In this document: piece after piece, positions 22,941-35,123 of the stretch
Numbering within the stretch: position 1 is the first letter of the stretch
How the letters are laid out: each line of letters opens with the position of its first letter
NCBI RefSeq assembly: GCF_015062935.1
Contig: NZ_SUTM01000020.1
Coordinates: forward strand, 1-50,917
Length of the DNA stretch: 50,917 nt
Direction of reading: 5' to 3'
From: Methanobrevibacter sp.
GTDB taxonomy: Archaea; Methanobacteriota; Methanobacteria; Methanobacteriales; Methanobacteriaceae
Notes under the pieces: generated by a model
What the model saw: only the letters and a program-made list of their open reading frames with translations
What the model was told of the DNA's origin: nothing
Database searches by the model: none
Position numbers and translations under genes: made by a program

Positions 22941-23462
22941 TCAGTCATAAAGACTGTTACCGTGACTGTCCATTGCAACTATGAGTGGTCCAAAATCTTT
23001 AACTTTTAAATTCCAAATTGCTTCAGGCATTCCTAAGTCTAACCAGTCTACACTTTCAATTTCTTCAACAGCATCAACATATAATGCTGCACATCCGCCA
23101 GTAGCTACAACATATAGAGCTTCATTTCTTTTTAACGCTTCACGCACAGTATCATCCATACCGCCTTTACCAATGACAATTTTAGGACCCATATCCAGAA
23201 CATCACTCTGGTAAGGATTCATTCTCATTGAAGTGGTAGGTCCAATAGCTACCATTTCATATCCATCATCTTTTTCAGAGATAATAGGTCCTGCATGAAA
23301 TAACACCGCACCTTCAATATCTAAAGGAGCGCCTTGTTCAAGCAACCTTTTATGCGCCTGGTCACGTGCAGTTAAAATATTACCTGTTAAATAAACTACA
23401 TCGCCTGCTTTTAATTCTGATAAATCTTCATCTTTAATTGGAACGTTCAATTTTCTTTCCAT
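22941..23462 (-). CDS. fumB: Fumarate hydratase, class I, beta subunit
   Basis: The C-terminal-domain subunit of two-subunit, iron-sulfur class I fumarase/L(+)-tartrate dehydratase. The 173-residue sequence has the family segments [65 protein letters not shown] and [21 protein letters not shown]. Fumarase interconverts malate and fumarate in the partial reductive TCA branch fed by pyruvate carboxylase. The alpha subunit is not in the window. A TATA box (about 23487-23496) and AAGGTG precede the start, so it is independently transcribed with a very short leader. Confidence 0.93.
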
Positions 23463-23588: not shown

Positions 23589-23702
23589 CACATTAACATT
23601 AACGTCAGCTATTTGTAAATTGAAATTTACTTTTAAAAAGTAGTTGATATATATGTATAATTATAAAACAACTTGATTTGTAGAATACTTGGCGTTAATG
23701 TG
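23589..23702. repeat. Copy A of a ~113-bp element with inverted ends
   Basis: The stretch begins CACATTAACATTAACG and ends GGCGTTAATGTG; the ends are imperfect inverted repeats sharing the core ACATTAAC/GTTAATGT. A second copy of almost the same length is at 29238-29349. The right-hand 40 bp (AAAACAACTTGATTTGT... GCGTTAATGT) is the best conserved part. It lies about 110 bp downstream of the first adhesin-like gene, between that gene and fumB. The other parts of the 350-bp gap (23463-23812) hold only the fumB promoter and the adhesin gene's terminator. Confidence 0.6.
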
Positions 23703-23769
23703 AAATCACATTCATTAAAATTATAGTTTGAGAGGATGTTTTAATTTAAATTGAAAGATTAAATGATTT

Positions 23770-23814
23770 AAAAAAAAGATAAAAAAAGTTAGAAGAGGAA
23801 ATATAATCCCCTCT
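23770..23814 (-). terminator. Terminator of the 1728-residue adhesin-like gene
   Basis: The hairpin at 23794-23814 has arms AGAGGGGA/TTTCCTCT (two G-T pairs) and includes the TAG stop. It is followed on the minus strand by two long T runs (plus-strand A runs at 23770-23787). Confidence 0.65.
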
Positions 23815-26800
23815 ATTTGATTGTAATTTTAACTTTTTTAGACACTGATTTATATGTATTGTCACCAGCGAATTTGATTACTGCAGTGAATATGCCTTTT
23901 TTGGTTATTTTAATACTGAAAGTAACCTGACCTTTAGCATTTGTTTTTGCAGTGTAGGTTTTACCGTTTACTTTTAAAGTAACTTTTTTGCCTTTTGCAA
24001 GGTATGTTTTTCCATCGATGGATGATCCTTTGATGGTTTTTAAGGTTACTGTGTATTTTTTGGTTTTTGCAGTAGTCTTAAATGTTTTTGCGCTTGCAGA
24101 TATTGATGTTGTTTTCTTTTCAATGGTTACTTTGTGTACAGCCATGCTTGCATTATAGTCTTCGTCACCTAGGAATACGATTACAAAGGTGTACAGGCCT
24201 GCGTTTTTGAGGTTAATCTGAACATTTGCGAAACCGTTTTCATCAGTGGTTCTGTTTAATGTTACGCCATTGTAACCGATGTAGATGGTTTTGTTTGCAA
24301 TAGGATTTCCCTCATCATCTACAAGTTGGAATGTGAAGTTTCCACCACGTTCTCCTTCGTAGAAATCACAAGCATATTGTGCAAAGTCGTTTCCTAAAAT
24401 AACAGTTGATTGTCTCATTACAGCAGGAACAGTAAGTTTGATTGAAATATTAACCGGAATATATAAATCACTTCCAGCATAATCAACAATTATTGTAGCG
24501 CCAGATTCTCCAACAATCTCAAGTGAACCGTTAGCATCACTAACAACAGTTTTAGAAACATTGTTTATAGTATATGAAATATTTGCATTAGGAATTGCAT
24601 TTCCATTAGCATCTTTCAATATCATGGAAATATTATTTCCCTCTACAACGATATCATCAAATTTTGTTGCTATAATAGTTGTGCCTGAGATAACTGTTTC
24701 AGCTTCAGTGTAATATGAATCTGCATCATGGCGAACAGTGATATAATAATCTCTTACATCTTCCAAAACAATTTTACCATCTTCATCTGTGACGTAAACA
24801 GCATCCATAGATTTACCGTTAACGAATCCTTTAACAGTTATGTTTTGACCTTCTTCCCTGTTTGATCCGGAAATATTGGAACTGATAGTTGTAACACCGT
24901 TTTTGCCCCAATAGGTTACATTGGTAAATGCCACTTCAGCATTACTGTCAGAGTAAATAGCATTTAAAAAGTTATTTTGACCAAGGAATGCAATTTCAAT
25001 ACTAGTTCCATTTACAGTTACATTAAATGGAGTTGTATCATCCGCATTTGCTCTGTTGTTTAAGAAAACGGAATTGGAAACAATATTATTTGAAGCGTCG
25101 TCACAGTAAATTGCGGAACCTCTGGTTGCATTATTGCCGATGAAATTACAATTTGCCACATTACCGCTAACAGAGATGAAAACCGCACCACCAAATTTTG
25201 CAGAGTTATTGGTGAAATTACAATCACTCACAGTACCGGTACCATTAATGTAAAGAGCACCACCAAATTCAGCATGATTACCCATAAATTCACCATTAAA
25301 TAATACATTTTCAATGCTTTCAAAGAAATTGATTGCACCACCGTATGTAGCATGATTATCAACGAAATTACCATTAAATGTAATATTAATAGGAGTTAAA
25401 CGATAATTTACTGCACCACTATGTTGAACAGCAGTGTTGTTAATGAAATCACATGTAAATACGGAATTACTTGAAACATCCCTGAAAGTAATAGCACCAC
25501 CATTACCATTCATTTCACCAGTTTGCACTCCTAAAGCAGAATTATTAATAAAACAACCAGTAAAATTATTCTTATCTGAAGTACCAAAGAATACAATCGC
25601 ACCACCGGAGGAATTAGCTAAATTAAACATGAAATCAGAATCAAATCTGTTATTGTTAGCCTTATTGTAGAAAAAGATTGCTCCACCATTAACTGCATAA
25701 TTATTTGTGAAACTGCCTTCAAAACTATTGTTCTCAGCAACATTACGGAAAAATATTGCACCCCCACTAGCAGCATTAACACGATTATTATTAAACTCGG
25801 CAGAAATTACATTATCACAAGATTTATTCTGGAAACAAATAGCTCCACCAATTCTTTCAGCCACATTACCTTCAAAATAACCATCAATCACATTACCAGA
25901 AGTTTCATCATTAAAGAATACTGCACCACCCTGATAAGCACTATTATTAATAAAAGTGGAATTGATTTTGGAATTTGAAAAAGTAGTCTGAATAAATATT
26001 GCACCACCGGTTCTAGCGGAGTTATCAGCGAAATTAGAATCTGTCACATTTCCTTTTTCATAGAAGTAAACAGCACCACCATTAAAAGCAGTGTTGCCGG
26101 AGAATTTAGAGTTTTCTACATTGGCATATCTATTGAAATAAACTGCACCTCCACGTGATTTTGCAGAGTTGCCAGTGAAATTACAGCCTGTTACATTAGC
26201 ATTAGCTTCAAATAGAATTGCACCGCCATCCCTTGAAGCAGTGTTATTAATGAAATTACAGTTTTCAACAGAACCAGTACTATTATAGTAAACTGCACCT
26301 CCAACATTTAAAGCGACATTATTAATGAAATTACAATTTTTAACAGTGCCATTAGAACCCAGTTCGAAATAGACTGCACCACCATATCTGGCGGAGTTAT
26401 TAGTAAAATTACAATTTTCAACTGAACCGGTACTGTCAAAGTAAACTGCACCGCCATCATAAATAGAAGCGGTGTTATTGACAAAATTACAGTCTGTTAC
26501 ATTACCAATACCGTAAAATAGGATTGCTCCAACTGCACTAACAGCATAGTTATTTGTAAAATTACAATCGGTTACATTACCATCACTATCTTGAAATACG
26601 ATTGCACCACCAGTATTAGCAATATTATTAATAAAATTAGATTTTTCAACAGTACCCGAACCGCTGAAGTGCATTGCACCACCATTATAAGTGGAAGCAG
26701 TGTTATTGACAAAATTACAATCTGTTACATTACCCATATCAATAAATCTAATTGCACCACCCCAATCAGCAGTGTTATTAGTAAAATTACATTTTTCAAC

Positions 26801-28999
26801 AGTACTTGAACTTCTGAAGTACAATGCACCACCCTGTACAGAAGCAAAGTTATTAACAAAATTACAATTTGTTACTTCACTATTATTTATAAAGTAAACG
26901 GCACCACCAGCTCTAGCAGAGTTATTAATAAAAATACAATTTGCTAAATAATCATTCAGTGTAAATAGAATTGCACCACCACCATACATAGCAGAGTTAT
27001 TGGTAAAAATACAATTTGTTACAGTATGAGTGGAACCTGAAATACTGAAGTAAATAGCACCACCATAGACTGCTGCTTTGTTATTGGTAAAATTACAATT
27101 TTCAACGCTACCGGAAGACATGAAGACAGCACCACCATATGAATTATCCTCTTCATTAACTTGGTTGTTGTTAAAATTACAATATGATACCCCACCAGTA
27201 CTATTAAAGTAAACAGCACCACCACGATTAGAAGCAGAGCTATTAACAAAATTACAACTTGACACAGTACCGGAATACATATAGATAGCACCACCACAAT
27301 CAACAGCATTGTTATTAGTAAAATTACAATCTGCTACTTCACCAGTACTATTAAAGTAAACAGCACCACCACAATTAGAAGCAGAGCTATTAACAAAATT
27401 ACAATTTGCTACTTCACCAGTGCCATTAAAGTAAACAGCACCACCATAATTAGAAGCAAAGTTATTGACAAAATTACAATTTGTTAGATTACTAATATCC
27501 CAAAAGAAAACTGCGCCTCCACAATCAACAGCATTGTTATTAGTAAAATTACAATTTTCAACACTGCCTGAATACATACAGACAGCACCACCATAACTAT
27601 CATCAGTGGTTGCTTTATTATTAACAAAATTACAATTTGTTACAGTACCAAAACAAATCCAGATGGCACCTCCATCACCATCAGTAGCTGTATTATTAAC
27701 AAAATTACAATTTTCAACAGTACCGGAATACATACAGACAGCACCACCATAACTATCATCAGTGGTTGCTTTATTATTAATAAAATTACAATTTATCACA
27801 TTACCTTCTGAATACTCAGCAAGATAAATAGCACCACCATTACCTGTTGCTGTGTTATTAGTAAAATTACAATTGTCAACAGAACCAGTAATATTAAAGT
27901 AAACTGCACTACCATTGGAAGCAATGTTATTAACAAAATTACAATTTGTTACAGTACCAAAACAAATCCAGATGGCACCTCCATCACCATCGGTAGCAGT
28001 GTTATTAATAAAGTTACAATTTTCAACAGTACCGGAATACATGCAGACAGCACCAGCATAACTATAATCAATGGTTCCTTTGTTATTAACAAAATTACTA
28101 TTTGTTAAAGTACCAGTATAAATCAAAACAGCACCGCCACCATAATAAGCAGAGTTATTGGTAAAATTACAATTTGTCACATCACCATTGCCATCGAAGC
28201 AAACTGCACCAACCCAACCATCAGCAGCGTTATTAACAAAATTACAATTTGTTATAATACCATTTGAATCTACAGCGAAATAAATGGCGCCACCATCACT
28301 GGTTGCTTGGTTGTTAGTGAAATTACAATCTGTCACATTACCCGTTAGATTAAAGAAAACTGATCCCCCATAATTTGCAGTGTTATCAGTAAAATTACAA
28401 TTTGACACACTACCCTCATCATAGAAGTAAACTGCACCACCATCTCCAGAAGCAGTGTTGTCAGTAAAATTACAATTTGTCACAGTACCAGTACTATCAA
28501 AGTAAATTGCTCCTCCATTACCATTATAATTAGCATTTTTAATGGTTAGGTTTTTAATTGTTACACCGGAAGCATTAATATGAAATGCCCTGATTGTTGA
28601 TCCGTTCATGTCAATGACTGCACCGTTACCATCAATGACTTTATTGTCCTCACTGATAGTAATGGTTTCACCCTTATCGTAAGTATAGTTTTTATGGGTT
28701 AAATTAATGTTTCCTGGCTGGCTAATTTCTGCAGCCAAATCAGAATATTTAGCTGAATCCACACCCAATACCTCAGTATCAGTTTGCGCAATAGCCTCAT
28801 CATTATCAGTTGAAGCCAATTCATCGTTTTCTTCACTTGTTTGCAGATTATCCTCAATAATATCCTTATCAACGGATAACCCAATAGTATTTGTATCCTC
28901 ACTTGCTAAAGTATCATCTATTTCACTTGCACTAACACAAGTTATGCTTAATAGAAAAACAGCAAGCACCAGCATGAACATTATTTTCTTGTATTTCAT
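23813..28999 (-). CDS. Adhesin-like protein with ~45 beta-helix repeats
   Basis: A 1728-residue secreted surface protein. It has a Sec signal peptide (MKYKKIMFMLVLAVFLLSIT, cleavage after VSA near residue 25) and an acidic linker to about residue 100. About 45 tandem repeats of 20-27 residues follow at roughly 155-1325, with the pattern GGAVYF-x(n)-VxNCNFxNNxA, predicting a right-handed parallel beta-helix. Ig-like domains occupy about 1360-1728, the last one Lys-rich with KVNGKTYTAKTNAKG. No membrane anchor or sortase motif is visible, so wall attachment is probably non-covalent. Adhesin-like proteins of this kind are expanded in Methanobrevibacter. The ligand is unknown. Confidence 0.9.
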   Translation of the reverse strand: MKYKKIMFMLVLAVFLLSITCVSASEIDDTLASEDTNTIGLSVDKDIIEDNLQTSEENDELASTDNDEAIAQTDTEVLGVDSAKYSDLAAEISQPGNINLTHKNYTYDKGETITISEDNKVIDGNGAVIDMNGSTIRAFHINASGVTIKNLTIKNANYNGNGGAIYFDSTGTVTNCNFTDNTASGDGGAVYFYDEGSVSNCNFTDNTANYGGSVFFNLTGNVTDCNFTNNQATSDGGAIYFAVDSNGIITNCNFVNNAADGWVGAVCFDGNGDVTNCNFTNNSAYYGGGAVLIYTGTLTNSNFVNNKGTIDYSYAGAVCMYSGTVENCNFINNTATDGDGGAIWICFGTVTNCNFVNNIASNGSAVYFNITGSVDNCNFTNNTATGNGGAIYLAEYSEGNVINCNFINNKATTDDSYGGAVCMYSGTVENCNFVNNTATDGDGGAIWICFGTVTNCNFVNNKATTDDSYGGAVCMYSGSVENCNFTNNNAVDCGGAVFFWDISNLTNCNFVNNFASNYGGAVYFNGTGEVANCNFVNSSASNCGGAVYFNSTGEVADCNFTNNNAVDCGGAIYMYSGTVSSCNFVNSSASNRGGAVYFNSTGGVSYCNFNNNQVNEEDNSYGGAVFMSSGSVENCNFTNNKAAVYGGAIYFSISGSTHTVTNCIFTNNSAMYGGGAILFTLNDYLANCIFINNSARAGGAVYFINNSEVTNCNFVNNFASVQGGALYFRSSSTVEKCNFTNNTADWGGAIRFIDMGNVTDCNFVNNTASTYNGGAMHFSGSGTVEKSNFINNIANTGGAIVFQDSDGNVTDCNFTNNYAVSAVGAILFYGIGNVTDCNFVNNTASIYDGGAVYFDSTGSVENCNFTNNSARYGGAVYFELGSNGTVKNCNFINNVALNVGGAVYYNSTGSVENCNFINNTASRDGGAILFEANANVTGCNFTGNSAKSRGGAVYFNRYANVENSKFSGNTAFNGGAVYFYEKGNVTDSNFADNSARTGGAIFIQTTFSNSKINSTFINNSAYQGGAVFFNDETSGNVIDGYFEGNVAERIGGAICFQNKSCDNVISAEFNNNRVNAASGGAIFFRNVAENNSFEGSFTNNYAVNGGAIFFYNKANNNRFDSDFMFNLANSSGGAIVFFGTSDKNNFTGCFINNSALGVQTGEMNGNGGAITFRDVSSNSVFTCDFINNTAVQHSGAVNYRLTPINITFNGNFVDNHATYGGAINFFESIENVLFNGEFMGNHAEFGGALYINGTGTVSDCNFTNNSAKFGGAVFISVSGNVANCNFIGNNATRGSAIYCDDASNNIVSNSVFLNNRANADDTTPFNVTVNGTSIEIAFLGQNNFLNAIYSDSNAEVAFTNVTYWGKNGVTTISSNISGSNREEGQNITVKGFVNGKSMDAVYVTDEDGKIVLEDVRDYYITVRHDADSYYTEAETVISGTTIIATKFDDIVVEGNNISMILKDANGNAIPNANISYTINNVSKTVVSDANGSLEIVGESGATIIVDYAGSDLYIPVNISIKLTVPAVMRQSTVILGNDFAQYACDFYEGERGGNFTFQLVDDEGNPIANKTIYIGYNGVTLNRTTDENGFANVQINLKNAGLYTFVIVFLGDEDYNASMAVHKVTIEKKTTSISASAKTFKTTAKTKKYTVTLKTIKGSSIDGKTYLAKGKKVTLKVNGKTYTAKTNAKGQVTFSIKITKKGIFTAVIKFAGDNTYKSVSKKVKITIK
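27580..28080 (-). repeat. Near-identical internal duplications within the adhesin repeats
   Basis: Two segments, about 27640-27780 and 27945-28075, are nearly identical at the DNA level. Both encode the pair of repeats around CMYSGTVENCNF and GGAIWICFGTVTNCNF. A third partial copy lies at about 27545-27640. Other repeats in the gene are much more diverged, so these are recent tandem duplications or conversions. Confidence 0.75.
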
Positions 29000-29007
29000 T
29001 TCTCCCT

Positions 29008-29170
29008 GAACTCCTGAAAATTGTATAATAAAAATGTTTTATTTCATTCAAACAATTGTAAAAATACATGACATTTGTTTAAAAACTTCTAAAACATGAC
29101 TAAAAGTCTATCCACAAATATATAAATATATAACGATTTTGAAGAACTGTGGCAGATAAACTGATATTTA
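29008..29170 (-). promoter_or_regulatory. Promoter and leader of the 1728-residue adhesin gene
   Basis: This shares most of its sequence with 32878-33037 upstream of the next adhesin gene. The TATA region is ATATATTTATATATT (29116-29134). About 25 bp downstream, at the expected transcription start, is the palindrome GACTTTTAGTC (29098-29108). A conserved AT-rich leader of about 90 nt containing TTTGAATGA and AAAACATTT leads to the AGGAG-type ribosome-binding site. Confidence 0.6.
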
Positions 29171-29237
29171 TCTGTCTATCGTTTTGATTGTGTTAGAAAG
29201 TATGGAAAGAGTTTCAAATATTTCCCTGATTATTCTT

Positions 29238-29349
29238 CACATTAACATCGGCCATTAGCTATTCAAAACCTAATTTCCGAAACCCTTTCATATATCGCAG
29301 TGGAAAACCAAATTGATTTGTGAAAACGGGAGCGTTAATGTTAATGTTA
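29238..29349. repeat. Copy B of the ~113-bp element with inverted ends
   Basis: It begins CACATTAACATCGGCC and ends AGCGTTAATGTTAATGTTA. The inverted ends match each other and those of copy A at 23589. Length (112 versus 114 bp) and internal landmarks (AGCTATT, then AAAACCAAATTGATTTGT) agree. It lies about 95 bp downstream of the peptidase-adhesin terminator and upstream of the 1728-residue adhesin gene's promoter. The rest of the 482-bp gap (29000-29481) is accounted for by that promoter and that terminator. Confidence 0.6.
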
Positions 29350-29481: not shown

Positions 29482-32400
29482 CTATTTGACTTTTACACTA
29501 GATTTTACAGTATCCTTAAGGTAAGTCACTTTAACTGTGTATGTTTTTCCTTTTTTGAGCTTTTTGATAACATTCCTCTTAAGTGTCTTTTGTGCAATTC
29601 CCTTGGAGTTGGTTTTGACTTTATATGTCTTGCCGTTGAACTTGAATATTATCACCTTACCTTTAACGAGTTTACCGTTGATTTTAAGGGTTGCTTTCAA
29701 GGTAAATTTCCTGGCAGTCTTTTTGACGGTGACTTTGCTAACTTTAAGCACCTGTTTTACGGTTACAGTGTTCTTATATGTTTTACCATCATATATTGTG
29801 ATTATGGTGTATTTATTGGGAACTTCTGTAATTTTGATTTTAGCCATTCCATTTTTGTCTGTCTTAACGGTTAGTGTTTTACCGTTAATTACAAATATTA
29901 CTGATTGCCCGCCAACAGCAACTTTACCATCACTGGAAACCAGTTTTGCGGTGAAGTAAGATTCTCCGGCATAATCCACTGCAATATTTTTAGAAACAAC
30001 TTTACAGTTCTGCAAATCCAACATTACACTTACATTGTTTAGATAATACTGATTATTATAGGAAGTTGCAACCACATAATTGCCTGGAACTTCATTTATT
30101 TCCAGTTTGGCAATACCCTCATTGTCAGTTGTTGCATTAATCGCCTTCCCGTTTATTGTAAACTCAACAGATGCACCCACAACAGAATGATTATTGGAAG
30201 TTACAACTTTAACACTGAAATATGATTCACTGCCGTAAACAACTGAAATATCTGTGTTGGAAGTGACTTTGGAGTCATCTTCTACAGTATAAACCTTCAG
30301 GCAGGATACATGATTTGGATATAAATCAATTACGACACCATTTTCAATTAAAAATGATTTATTTTCACTTAAATGAACTCTAATTTGACCTGAAGAAGAA
30401 ACAGGTATACAATTTGAGGTTATTTCTGCAATAAATTCATCTCCCTTTTTAACTGGAACGTATTCATTTAACTTGATGGTGTGAAAACCTCTGAACGGAG
30501 ATACGCCATCCTGCGTTAACATCAGATTGCCGTTTACATAGATTTTCACGGTGTAATTGATGCCGCTTTGATTGAAGTATGTTCCGACAGCTGCAATCAG
30601 ATCATCATCTTCAGCTTCATAGCGATTAAAACAGGTCAGATTATCCGTTTCATTAGGCATTAAGAAATCACCAACCCATACAGTATCATACCCGTAATTC
30701 TTATTGTACGGCACTTTATTTTCAAGTATTATTCCAATACCCTGATTAATAATGTAGGATGCTGCAAGAAATGTTTTGTCATAATATGAAATGTAATAGA
30801 AACCGTTGTCTCCCACTGAAGTTCCCCAACTGTTTTTAATAATCCATGCCCCGTCACCCGGCGGAGTTTTAAGGAAATTGTCCTTGGAATAATTGTCATC
30901 CCATCCAATAACAGAAACCTCATGATTCAGGCCAGGTGCATCAAATGTATATTGTGCAGATGTATTTAAATTCAAATAGCCCTCTTTTTCATCAGAAGTT
31001 GCCCAATATCCTACGCTTAATGCTCCATATTTCATGATTGCTGTTTTGATTTCTGTACCGTTTAATACTTTATCATTTGAAACAAATATTACGTCCTGAA
31101 CATGAATGACATCAGAACCTGTTGTTATATATGGTGAAAGTTTTCCAACCTCATCATATATGTCAGTTTCTTCAAAAGCAGGACCATACCATCCCACCAT
31201 ATATGATGCAGCAACCCCACCGGTACCGCCTTCATCTAAGTCGGTGCAACCGTAATTGAAGTACTTTAACATGTTATGATGGAGATTGCCTTCAGACAAA
31301 TCAAGCTCCACGCCATATGTCTTCAAAATTGCTGATTCAACAGCACTGGTTAATCCAAATGTCCAGCAGGCCCCCATTCTACCCTGATCCTTTACTGGCG
31401 TAAGCCATCCCCAATCACGCAAATCGAATCTTTCCGGAAGACCCACGACAGTTATGGTGTTGTTGACCGGTTCAAATTTCAGTGCCGGGGAATCAACACA
31501 TGCCGGATAATCTAGAGTCTGATTGGTGATGACGATTTCATTGTCAAATGTATTATTTTTCCAAATACAATTTCCAACATCATAATAAGTGAAAAGGGCA
31601 TTCGTATTGTTTTCAAAGATGGAATTGGCAATGGCATAATATGTATCAACGGCTAGTATTGCATTACCTGCACTTGCAGAGTTATTGAGGAAACTGGAGT
31701 TGTTTATCAAAATATTGTTGTAATCGGAAAATATTGCGCCTCCCAGACCTGGATAATCCTCAAAGTCTTCGACAGCATTTGAATCAAAAACACAATTGTT
31801 AATCTCAGCATTTTCCAAAAATGCCAAATACACCGCTCCACCGTTATGGACTGCACTATTGCTGGTGAAATTTGTATTGTTCATGAAAAGACTACCTCCC
31901 AGCTGAATATATGCCCCACCCATCATGGAAGATGAATTTATAAACGCACACTCAGTTACTGTAGCATTGTAGGCTTCCATTCCATAATCAACCAGTATTG
32001 CGCCGGCATTTTTAATGGATTTGGTGTTGATGAACTCACAGCCTTTGATACATGAGTTGCCTGTCCATCTTATGGCAATTGCTCCTGCGGATTTCTCGGC
32101 TGTAAGGTTAATGAATCTGGAATTAGTAATTGAACTTTCACAATATTCAAAATAGAGTGAGGATGCATAAGCAGAAGTTATGTTAATGAAATCTGAATCA
32201 TCTATGCTGACTGAGGAATGTGTGGCAAAAATTTGACCATATTTACCAGTGCTGTGTGATGTGACAGATGAGTTTGAGACCTTTAATGTGGCATTATCTA
32301 AATATATTGATGATCCCCTTTCACCATAATTGTCAATAAAGCGGGACCCTGCGCAATTTAATATACTGTCATGAATGAGAATTGCTCCGCCACGACTGGC

Positions 32401-32868
32401 ATTATTGGCGATGAAAGTCACATTGTTTAATGTAATATTGCCTGTAGCATATATTGCACCTCCTTTATTGCTATTACCGTTGATGAATATGAGATTGTTG
32501 ATTGTTATATTGCTTCCTGTAATATTGAATATTCCGGATTGCATGTTTGCATCCAGAACATGATTGTTTCCGTTTATTGTGAAATCGCTTTTATTAATAA
32601 CAACCGGACCACTGTCAGTTTCATTGCTGAAAGTGTAGTCATACTTCATTTCAAATGTGTCATGTGATACATTAATATCCTTGTCCAGTTGTGAGAATGT
32701 ATTCGGATTATCCGTTATTATTTCGTTTTCAGTTGTCTTGAGTGTTACCGGTTCCATTTGCATGATGCCCTCGCTTGTTGTATCATTCATATCCCCTGCA
32801 TTAACGGTTGCAATTGAGAATATGAAAATTGCAAGAAGCAGTAGGATCATGCTTTTTTTGTATTTCAT
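29482..32868 (-). CDS. Adhesin-like protein with papain-family (C1A) peptidase domain
   Basis: An 1128-residue secreted protein. A Sec signal peptide (MKYKKSMILLLLAIFIFSIA, cleavage after VNA) is followed by beta-helix repeats at about 90-430. A papain-like cysteine peptidase domain at about 465-710 has oxyanion Gln495 and Cys501 in PVKDQGRMGACWTFG, His649 in LNHEVSVIGW and Asn679 in WIIKNSWG; all the key residues are present. A jelly-roll/lectin-like region (about 720-870) and Ig-like repeats (about 885-1128) with KINGKTYxVKT motifs complete it. No propeptide of the classic C1A type is obvious, and the beta-helix occupies that position. Targets could be host, competitor or own surface proteins; this is inference. 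Confidence 0.9.
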   Translation of the reverse strand: MKYKKSMILLLLAIFIFSIATVNAGDMNDTTSEGIMQMEPVTLKTTENEIITDNPNTFSQLDKDINVSHDTFEMKYDYTFSNETDSGPVVINKSDFTINGNNHVLDANMQSGIFNITGSNITINNLIFINGNSNKGGAIYATGNITLNNVTFIANNASRGGAILIHDSILNCAGSRFIDNYGERGSSIYLDNATLKVSNSSVTSHSTGKYGQIFATHSSVSIDDSDFINITSAYASSLYFEYCESSITNSRFINLTAEKSAGAIAIRWTGNSCIKGCEFINTKSIKNAGAILVDYGMEAYNATVTECAFINSSSMMGGAYIQLGGSLFMNNTNFTSNSAVHNGGAVYLAFLENAEINNCVFDSNAVEDFEDYPGLGGAIFSDYNNILINNSSFLNNSASAGNAILAVDTYYAIANSIFENNTNALFTYYDVGNCIWKNNTFDNEIVITNQTLDYPACVDSPALKFEPVNNTITVVGLPERFDLRDWGWLTPVKDQGRMGACWTFGLTSAVESAILKTYGVELDLSEGNLHHNMLKYFNYGCTDLDEGGTGGVAASYMVGWYGPAFEETDIYDEVGKLSPYITTGSDVIHVQDVIFVSNDKVLNGTEIKTAIMKYGALSVGYWATSDEKEGYLNLNTSAQYTFDAPGLNHEVSVIGWDDNYSKDNFLKTPPGDGAWIIKNSWGTSVGDNGFYYISYYDKTFLAASYIINQGIGIILENKVPYNKNYGYDTVWVGDFLMPNETDNLTCFNRYEAEDDDLIAAVGTYFNQSGINYTVKIYVNGNLMLTQDGVSPFRGFHTIKLNEYVPVKKGDEFIAEITSNCIPVSSSGQIRVHLSENKSFLIENGVVIDLYPNHVSCLKVYTVEDDSKVTSNTDISVVYGSESYFSVKVVTSNNHSVVGASVEFTINGKAINATTDNEGIAKLEINEVPGNYVVATSYNNQYYLNNVSVMLDLQNCKVVSKNIAVDYAGESYFTAKLVSSDGKVAVGGQSVIFVINGKTLTVKTDKNGMAKIKITEVPNKYTIITIYDGKTYKNTVTVKQVLKVSKVTVKKTARKFTLKATLKINGKLVKGKVIIFKFNGKTYKVKTNSKGIAQKTLKRNVIKKLKKGKTYTVKVTYLKDTVKSSVKVK

Positions 32869-33302: not shown

Positions 33303-35123
33303 ATGTCAAGTATGAGCAGTGTTGCGGGACTTTCAAAATATATAAAAACATTGCCTAAAACTGAATACAATATTTTAGGAATGTTAATTTTTAGTTTTTT
33401 AATAGGCAGTTTATATTTTTTAATAGATTCAGTCCCTACTTACAATTTTCTAGAAGATATCGTTTTAGGAGGTCTTTTTGGACTAATATGTTTTGGAGTG
33501 ACCTCAATTATGAGCGGTGCTCTAAATCAACAGGTCATCAGTGGATTTCATGGGATAAATCTAAAAATTAAGCATTCCATGTTTTTATCCGGAGTTTCAA
33601 TGATCATTTTAGGACTTGTGTTGATTAGCGGAGGAATCATCTCCAGAATAACCAATATTGACATGTTTTTAAACTCATTATTATTTGGCTGCGTGCTGAT
33701 TTATGGATTCAATACATTAGTATTTTGGGCAACTTCAAAAGTCAGATTTATTGTTGCGGCCGGAGTAGGTTTAATTCAACCAACTCTTATATTGGCAATG
33801 TTTATTTTAATATCATTTTTTGCAATTGATACAAGTTTTTTAGGCCCGGCAATAATACAAATCATTATAAAAGCCCTGATTGCAGGCATAATATTTGTAT
33901 TGGCAATTTATGCATTTATCAAAATTATTGCATCCCCATTCCAGAAAAATCTGGGAATAGGAGTTCTGGATTTATTAAGCTTATTTATTGCACATATGAA
34001 TGAAGGATCAAACTCATTAGAAAGTTTGTTTGAAAATATGAGTGAAGCAATTGATACAGTTGTTACATTCGTTAGTTTTAAAACAGACGCCGGAATTAAA
34101 GCATTATTTATTTCACCATCAGTCCACCCCGGACCTCTAGGAGACCTGGGAGGATCCAACATGCCTACAATTCTGGCAAATAAATTTGATTATTTCACTA
34201 TGGTGGCTCATGGACCTTCAACCCATGATTTCAATCCAATTGCAGTTTCAGAAATCGATAAAATCGAAGATTCCATCAAAAAAGGTCTTGAAAAAGTGGA
34301 ATATAGTGAAACTGCCAGCAAATTCATAAGATACAAACATGAAAAGGCAAATATAGGAGTGCAGTTTTTCAATAAGGGACTAATAATCCTATCCACATTC
34401 GCTCCTGAAGCTGTTGATGATATTGAATTTGGTGTCGGATTAACAATGATGGCTCAAAGCAGAAGCAGATGCGGCGTCGAGAACTCTGTAATTGTTGATT
34501 GCCATAACTCATTTACCCCTGAAAGTGGAGAAGTTCTTCCGGGAAACTCAGAAGTGTTCCATCTCATAGAAGTTATTGATAAAATCGACCCTAATCAAGA
34601 AAAATACGAGGTTAAAATCGGTTGCTCACATGACAATATGGACACATTGGACAAACAGGAAGGAGTCGGTGAAAGCGGTGTAAAAACAATGGTTATTGAA
34701 GTTGGAGGTCAAAGAACTGCATATGTCCTTTTTGATGCCAACAATATGGAAATCGGATTCAGACAGGAAATCATTGATGCAGTAGGCAATTTAGAAATAG
34801 ATGAAATTGAAGTTATGACCACTGATACACATACAGTCAACACTCTTTCAAGAGGTTATAATCCAATTGGAATTGCAAAAAGAGCAGAAATAATAGAATA
34901 TGTTAAAACAAGTATTCAAAATGCAATAGATGATTTGGAAAAAGTTGAAGTTGGAACTGGAACCGAAAAAATAGAAAATCTTAATACTTTCGGCCCAAAA
35001 AATTCAACAGAACTGATTTCAACAATAAGTTCCGTGGTAGCCGTCAGTAAAATTATAGCTCCAGTATTATTGATTACTTCATTACTAATAGTATTTATAT
35101 GGATTTTCTTTGGGGGATTATAA
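33303..35123 (+). CDS. DUF2070 family membrane protein
   Basis: A 606-residue archaeal membrane protein of unknown function (DUF2070). About six hydrophobic segments lie in residues 20-215. A large soluble domain spans about 225-560, and one C-terminal membrane segment lies at about 578-603. The soluble domain carries the conserved, possibly metal-binding SPSVHPGPLGDLGGSNMP and HGPSTHDFNP, plus IVDCHNSF, GCSHDN and TTDTHTVN, giving histidine/aspartate-rich patches that look like an enzyme active site. It is convergent with a small membrane-protein gene, and the two coding regions overlap by 6 bp. Confidence 0.88.
   Translation: MSSMSSVAGLSKYIKTLPKTEYNILGMLIFSFLIGSLYFLIDSVPTYNFLEDIVLGGLFGLICFGVTSIMSGALNQQVISGFHGINLKIKHSMFLSGVSMIILGLVLISGGIISRITNIDMFLNSLLFGCVLIYGFNTLVFWATSKVRFIVAAGVGLIQPTLILAMFILISFFAIDTSFLGPAIIQIIIKALIAGIIFVLAIYAFIKIIASPFQKNLGIGVLDLLSLFIAHMNEGSNSLESLFENMSEAIDTVVTFVSFKTDAGIKALFISPSVHPGPLGDLGGSNMPTILANKFDYFTMVAHGPSTHDFNPIAVSEIDKIEDSIKKGLEKVEYSETASKFIRYKHEKANIGVQFFNKGLIILSTFAPEAVDDIEFGVGLTMMAQSRSRCGVENSVIVDCHNSFTPESGEVLPGNSEVFHLIEVIDKIDPNQEKYEVKIGCSHDNMDTLDKQEGVGESGVKTMVIEVGGQRTAYVLFDANNMEIGFRQEIIDAVGNLEIDEIEVMTTDTHTVNTLSRGYNPIGIAKRAEIIEYVKTSIQNAIDDLEKVEVGTGTEKIENLNTFGPKNSTELISTISSVVAVSKIIAPVLLITSLLIVFIWIFFGGL

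Follow-up and report, generated by a model that had tools for sequence, protein, structure and literature searches.

Putative attachment sites of a gene-cassette recombination system in Methanobrevibacter and its proviruses

The window, a 50,917-nt stretch of Methanobrevibacter sp. contig NZ_SUTM01000020.1, contains two copies of a repeated element. These copies are interpreted, with a probability of roughly 85%, as attachment sites at which gene cassettes would be inserted and removed by site-specific recombination. Comparison of the sequences points to a family of sites with a characteristic geometry, to the switching of site halves, to empty and occupied loci, and to the linkage of some members with an integrase; from these patterns we infer an enzyme, a circular intermediate and present-day activity. 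A site consists of two arms, 51 or 55 bp in length and tipped by ACATTAAC, that meet at a central ATATATAT. In the proposed mechanism, a tyrosine recombinase would bring two sites together and exchange strands within their common central 8 bp, so that every product site combines halves of both partners. Insertion would leave a cassette flanked by two directly repeated sites, n cassettes giving n+1 sites, and the likely recombinase would be a provirus-linked integrase of ∼375 aa whose stop codon is followed, 114-127 bp further on, by a site of its own.

Anatomy and distribution of the sites

The two copies placed by the earlier note at 23589-23702 and 29238-29349 are both present, at 23590-23701 (site 1) and 29239-29347 (site 2); neither is assigned a strand. 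Site 1 has a left arm of 55 bp and a right arm of 51 bp. It carries an outer ACATTAAC at 23590-23597, which is part of the left-end doublet ACATTAACATTAAC, an inner ACATTAAC at 23596-23603, a centre GATATATATG whose crossover centre falls between 23650 and 23651, and GTTAATGT at 23694-23701. Site 2, with arms of 55 bp (left) and 54 bp (right), begins with ACATTAAC at 29239-29246, has its centre (..CATATATC..) near 29293 and ends in the right-end doublet GTTAATGTTAATGT at 29334-29347.

Across the family, the layout is ACATTAAC - ∼43 bp - ATATATAT - ∼43 bp - GTTAATGT, with the end consensus (A)CATTAAC / GTTAATG(T) and a central block of consensus GGATATATATCC and core ATATATAT. The internal landmark AGCTATT, described in the earlier note, belongs to the longer, 55-bp arm type; the third block ATATATAT, exactly at the midpoint, had been overlooked. 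The modal site lengths are 102 and 106 bp, and the arms, taken as the distance between the centre and the outer edge of ACATTAAC, are mostly 51 or 55 bp long; an arm length of 45 is only apparent and results from measuring to the inner copy of the ACATTAACATTAAC doublet. Of the 176 distinct sites, both arms are short in 87 and both long in 2, and 81 combine a short with a long arm; the 55-bp arm consensus is better conserved than the 51-bp arm consensus. The core ATATATAT is present in 141 of the 176 sites, and it lies within 12 bp of the midpoint in 26 of 36 sites located by their ends only, so the centre is no artefact of the search. Blocks aside, the arms of different sites share a mean identity of ∼42%.

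The element is a real repeat and far more frequent than chance would allow: the ends-only pattern CATTAACN{75,105}GTTAATG gave 44 matches in the 2.5-Mb genome of the window (G000), as against 1 for the reversed-pattern control. With a sequence profile derived from 24 copies, the number in this genome rose to ∼50. Further copies in related genomes proved numerous, and the 176 distinct copies collected come nearly all from ruminant-gut Methanobrevibacter. Of 40 relatives, only certain congeneric genomes had the ends pattern in abundance, and a scan of 84,980 prokaryote genomes for ends plus centre returned 83 stretches, almost all in Methanobrevibacter MAGs, many of them labelled as rumen or other ruminant gut. 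Typical sites were also present in at least two wrongly labelled bins; two short contigs in bacterial MAGs, L319 (labelled Erysipelotrichaceae) and L371 (labelled Bacilli), carry such sites and are most likely misbinned Methanobrevibacter or virus contigs. No earlier description of this element was found in the literature.

The exact pattern matched only twice in viral contigs. Proviruses with sites, marked by terminase, portal and pseudomurein endoisopeptidase genes, were found on contigs C24, C16 and C30. One of the two matching viral contigs, the 34-kb IMGVR_UViG_3300021541_000001 (L382), carries at least three sites, so viruses of these archaea, free or integrated, bear them.

Occupied and empty loci, and exchange of halves at the centre

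In 16 relatives, the genes for a fumarase C-terminal domain protein and a DUF2070 membrane protein are divergent neighbours, mostly ∼70-120 bp apart. In the window, these left and right ancestral neighbours (22941-23462, minus strand; 33303-35123, plus strand) are separated by 9.8 kb that contain both sites and a pair of adhesin genes, all of which the relatives lack at this locus. The first gene encodes an adhesin-like protein of 1728 aa (23813-28999, minus strand) with Chlam_PMP repeats and a right-handed beta helix, a Big_1 match falling below the cut-off. It lies between both sites and ends, on its 3′ side, 112 bp from site 1; from centre to centre the putative gene cassette of this one adhesin-like gene spans 5643 bp (23651-29293, minus strand). 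The second encodes an adhesin-like protein of 1128 aa (29482-32868, minus strand) with papain-family Peptidase_C1 and Lectin_like domains, and site 2 lies past its 3′ end. No third site was found to the right of this gene, and the 9.8-kb insertion as a whole therefore departs from the n+1 count. The 1728-aa adhesin gene is regarded as a putative mobile cassette by analogy with occupied and empty loci elsewhere.

The evidence throughout is comparative and derives largely from MAGs. In the interval between the PAN ATPase and ThiC-like genes, genome G003 has a single site without a cassette. G016 carries one PIN-like cassette bounded by two sites, and in G000 there are three sites around two cassettes, 1521 and 1500 bp long; the sequences on either side of the lone G003 site correspond to the two outermost flanks in G000. 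This locus follows the rule of n cassettes and n+1 sites. On contig C24 of the window genome, 4856 bp with two adhesin genes (600 and 827 aa) lie between two sites, and Methanobrevibacter sp. Tb.RUG.508 (JAEEWY010000036.1) has one site in place of this pair. The left flank of the latter site is that of the first C24 site, and its right half plus the next 60 bases are identical to the second. Similarly, in an interval between an integrase gene and a winged-helix (wHTH) gene, G000 and G067 have one site each, and G063 has two sites around a 1077-bp defence cassette for a UzuA-like GIY-YIG protein. Many sites, such as that at argS, are solitary and without a cassette. Presence/absence patterns at argS and at aromatic-amino-acid loci had been read as insertions of the element only, a reading that was dropped after the switching at the centre was recognized.

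This switching is seen when contig C30 of the window genome is compared with genome G018. A 2.2-kb block, 96-100% identical and comprising a pseudomurein endoisopeptidase region and a CPBP-type protein, enters the site from the left in both genomes; the likeness ends just after the central ATATAT, and the right halves are unrelated. When all sites were screened for blocks of at least 85% identity that run through one half up to the centre, the other half being unrelated, 25 such pairs (∼10 of them independent) were obtained, with an identity of 0.23-0.58 in the other arm vs. a background of 0.42. Hybrid sites with halves from two parents, like the att products of tyrosine integrases, were thus found. 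The halves appear to be the units of exchange, and they switch in the way expected if two sites recombine reciprocally within a short overlap at their centres; such switching would not arise from homologous recombination between arms that are ∼42% identical. Moreover, adjacent polar site pairs were in direct orientation in 13 of 13 cases, which is what excision requires.

Thirty cassettes of 0.9-5.6 kb were recognized, usually with one to three genes and with a site just past the 3′ end of a gene. Their cargo includes adhesins, PIN-like proteins (our own reading, with no Pfam match), a large DUF4062/NWD1-like protein, transporters, reductases, a MutH-like restriction enzyme with a C5 methylase, GmrSD, a Schlafen group 3 helicase, UzuA and pseudomurein endoisopeptidase. 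Adhesins are one cargo class among several. The link to adhesins drawn in the earlier note holds for the window, where both copies lie past adhesin 3′ ends, but elsewhere copies are found beside metK, argS, the PAN ATPase gene, transporters and provirus genes, and an adhesin-specific element was ruled out by this survey of neighbours. Of the three functions that had been suggested for the element, sites that shuffle adhesin cassettes is the one best supported, by the occupied and empty loci and the half-site switching, with cassettes general in content. In a separate observation, five sites surround a gene for a 1231-aa DUF4062 protein, followed by a possible McrBC-like gene pair, on contig C1 of genome G019 (L140:6592-16887), a region that resembles a defence island assembled from cassettes.

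The candidate recombinase and competing explanations

The genus commonly carries two families of tyrosine recombinase, a single-copy XerA-like enzyme of ∼360 aa and a diverse family of ∼375 aa. The latter matches Pfam Phage_integrase (PF00589) and, in its catalytic domain, is weakly similar to XerA. Of the 30 best loci of this family, 7 have a site, full or half, that begins 114-127 bp past the stop codon of the ∼375-aa gene, and none has one on the 5′ side of the gene; integrases that are almost the same in four species do not count as independent evidence. The site-linked integrases adjoin provirus-like genes. They fall in two clusters of the tree, which does not support them as one clade, and most near relatives of the integrase have no adjacent site. 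On this linkage, the ∼375-aa provirus-linked integrase is likely the recombinase and is the leading candidate. A conserved winged-helix-like protein of 164-170 aa was also observed facing the integrase across the site in four loci (L085:4525-5037; L419:2692-3186; L420:6562-7056; L422:2946-3452). It is possibly a directionality factor or regulator, and its copy in G000 has no Pfam match.

The cassette model would stand equally if the recombinase were the XerA-like enzyme of the host and the sites dif-like modules, an assignment that concerns the enzyme only and that we consider rather unlikely. The XerA-like enzyme (80-94% identical) occurs in most genus genomes searched, and the dif modules of Acinetobacter operate comparably (PMC13141974). 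However, genomes that have few sites, or none, possess this enzyme as well, and no site lies within 1.5 kb of its gene in the loci examined, while some provirus integrases have one; furthermore, the site, at 102-106 bp, has a centre unlike that of the 11-6-11 archaeal dif (PMC8371274). A further alternative is that the sites are relic attachment sites of temperate viruses, the supposed cassettes being remnants of decayed proviruses that repeatedly integrated at the same sequence. Proviruses do carry sites, the site-linked integrases stand beside provirus-like genes, and the att chemistry would be identical. Nevertheless, this explanation seems improbable given compact cassettes whose cargo is intact and non-viral and in which a site lies just 3′ of a gene, a PIN-like cassette present in zero, one or two copies at one locus across species, and a UzuA cassette at an integrase-linked site itself.

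The two other functions suggested in the earlier note fared worse than cassette shuffling. A regulatory role, as a 3′ RNA, a terminator hairpin or a protein-binding element, would fit the bias of the sites toward gene 3′ ends (45 convergent and 16 divergent contexts vs. 52 and 96 in control intergenic regions) and the finding that single copies fold better than shuffled sequences. However, complementarity between the arms of one element does not extend past the ends and centre, the identity being 0.41 within the same element vs. 0.46 between different elements. Arms are thus as poorly complementary within a site as between sites, which rules out a conserved hairpin or cruciform, and no compensatory changes were seen between the arms of orthologous copies. 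As the 3′ bias is accounted for by the cassette structure and the neighbouring genes have no common function, a regulatory role is very improbable. A bidirectional promoter with a TATA-like central block, also considered, was ruled out because the sites avoid divergent intergenic regions. The notion of decayed miniature inverted-repeat transposable elements with ACATTAAC termini agrees with scattered intergenic copies that have inverted ends and differ in presence between species, but it is scarcely credible: no transposase with such ends was found beside the copies, the arm lengths are fixed though the arm sequence has diverged to ∼42% identity, the copies are mosaics joined at the centre, and the DNA gained or lost is the stretch between copies. 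Fixed arm lengths, switching at the centre and the linked integrase would all be left unexplained.

Relation to known systems

Methanobrevibacter has large, strain-variable sets of adhesins, which are thought to govern the choice of partners in the rumen and gut, and the papers retrieved describe no mechanism for this variation. A site-specific cassette system would provide such a mechanism and tie it to archaeal virus defence. It would also make gene exchange among these methanogens directly testable, perhaps yield a genetic tool, and mean that the problem solved by integrons has been solved a second time, by way of different sites. A broader proposal, on which our judgement is evenly balanced, is that an integron-like cassette economy, evolved apart from integrons, is common to rumen Methanobrevibacter and their proviruses. 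In it, a provirus-linked tyrosine recombinase with a two-armed site of its own, ∼100 bp long, would capture single genes (adhesins, PIN-like, restriction, UzuA, GmrSD, Schlafen-like helicase) and deposit them at dozens of like sites scattered over the chromosome, so that surface and defence repertoires could be exchanged across species.

With integrons, the system has in common small cassette arrays, sites at 3′ ends, an integrase with its own site, varied cargo including defence genes, and arrays without an adjacent integrase. The end boxes of integron attC sites are RYYYAAC and GTTRRRY; the ends described here keep AAC/GTT but miss the R and Y at the first two box positions. In addition, attC is a single imperfect hairpin, whereas the arms here form no conserved hairpin, and the attC crossover is at the terminal R′ box instead of at a palindromic centre between two double-sided half-sites. 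The site-linked integrase also differs in being weakly XerA-like and provirus-linked, and the sites in being scattered over the chromosome. IntI-type integrases have an extra domain; the matches seen for the integrase here were Phage_integrase and, weakly, XerA. Archaeal integrons have been reported in 75 MAGs, in a paper whose main text does not mention Methanobrevibacter (PMC9668308).

In the dif modules of Acinetobacter plasmids, which often carry toxin-antitoxin or resistance genes, gene modules are likewise bounded by tyrosine-recombinase sites and shuffled site-specifically (PMC13141974, PMC6449649). The pdif sites are, however, 28-bp XerC/XerD sites (two 11-bp arms and a 6-bp spacer) that bound modules in alternating orientation (PMC13141974, PMC6449649), as compared with sites of ∼100 bp, on the chromosome and in proviruses, and the direct orientation found here. 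Such modules depend on the Xer recombinase of their host; a XerA-like gene is present here too, unlinked to the sites in the loci examined. The att sites of temperate viruses, for example the intergenic AT-rich site of prophage psiM100 (cited in PMC8371274), share an integrase beside the site, a short identical core and an AT-rich intergenic target; the difference lies in the ∼50 sites per genome here, which are used by cassettes without virus genes. The chemistry of the sites resembles that of tyrosine-integrase att sites with an identical short overlap and hybrid products, and the linked integrase would be the catalyst.

A recurrent arrangement was also observed in which two or three sites lie ∼200 bp apart, with no intervening gene, upstream of a provirus gene of ∼396 aa (L076:9680-10190 on contig C24 of the window genome; L078:4377-4680 on C16; L138:6837-7345 in G016), and the same ∼200-bp spacing recurs at further loci.
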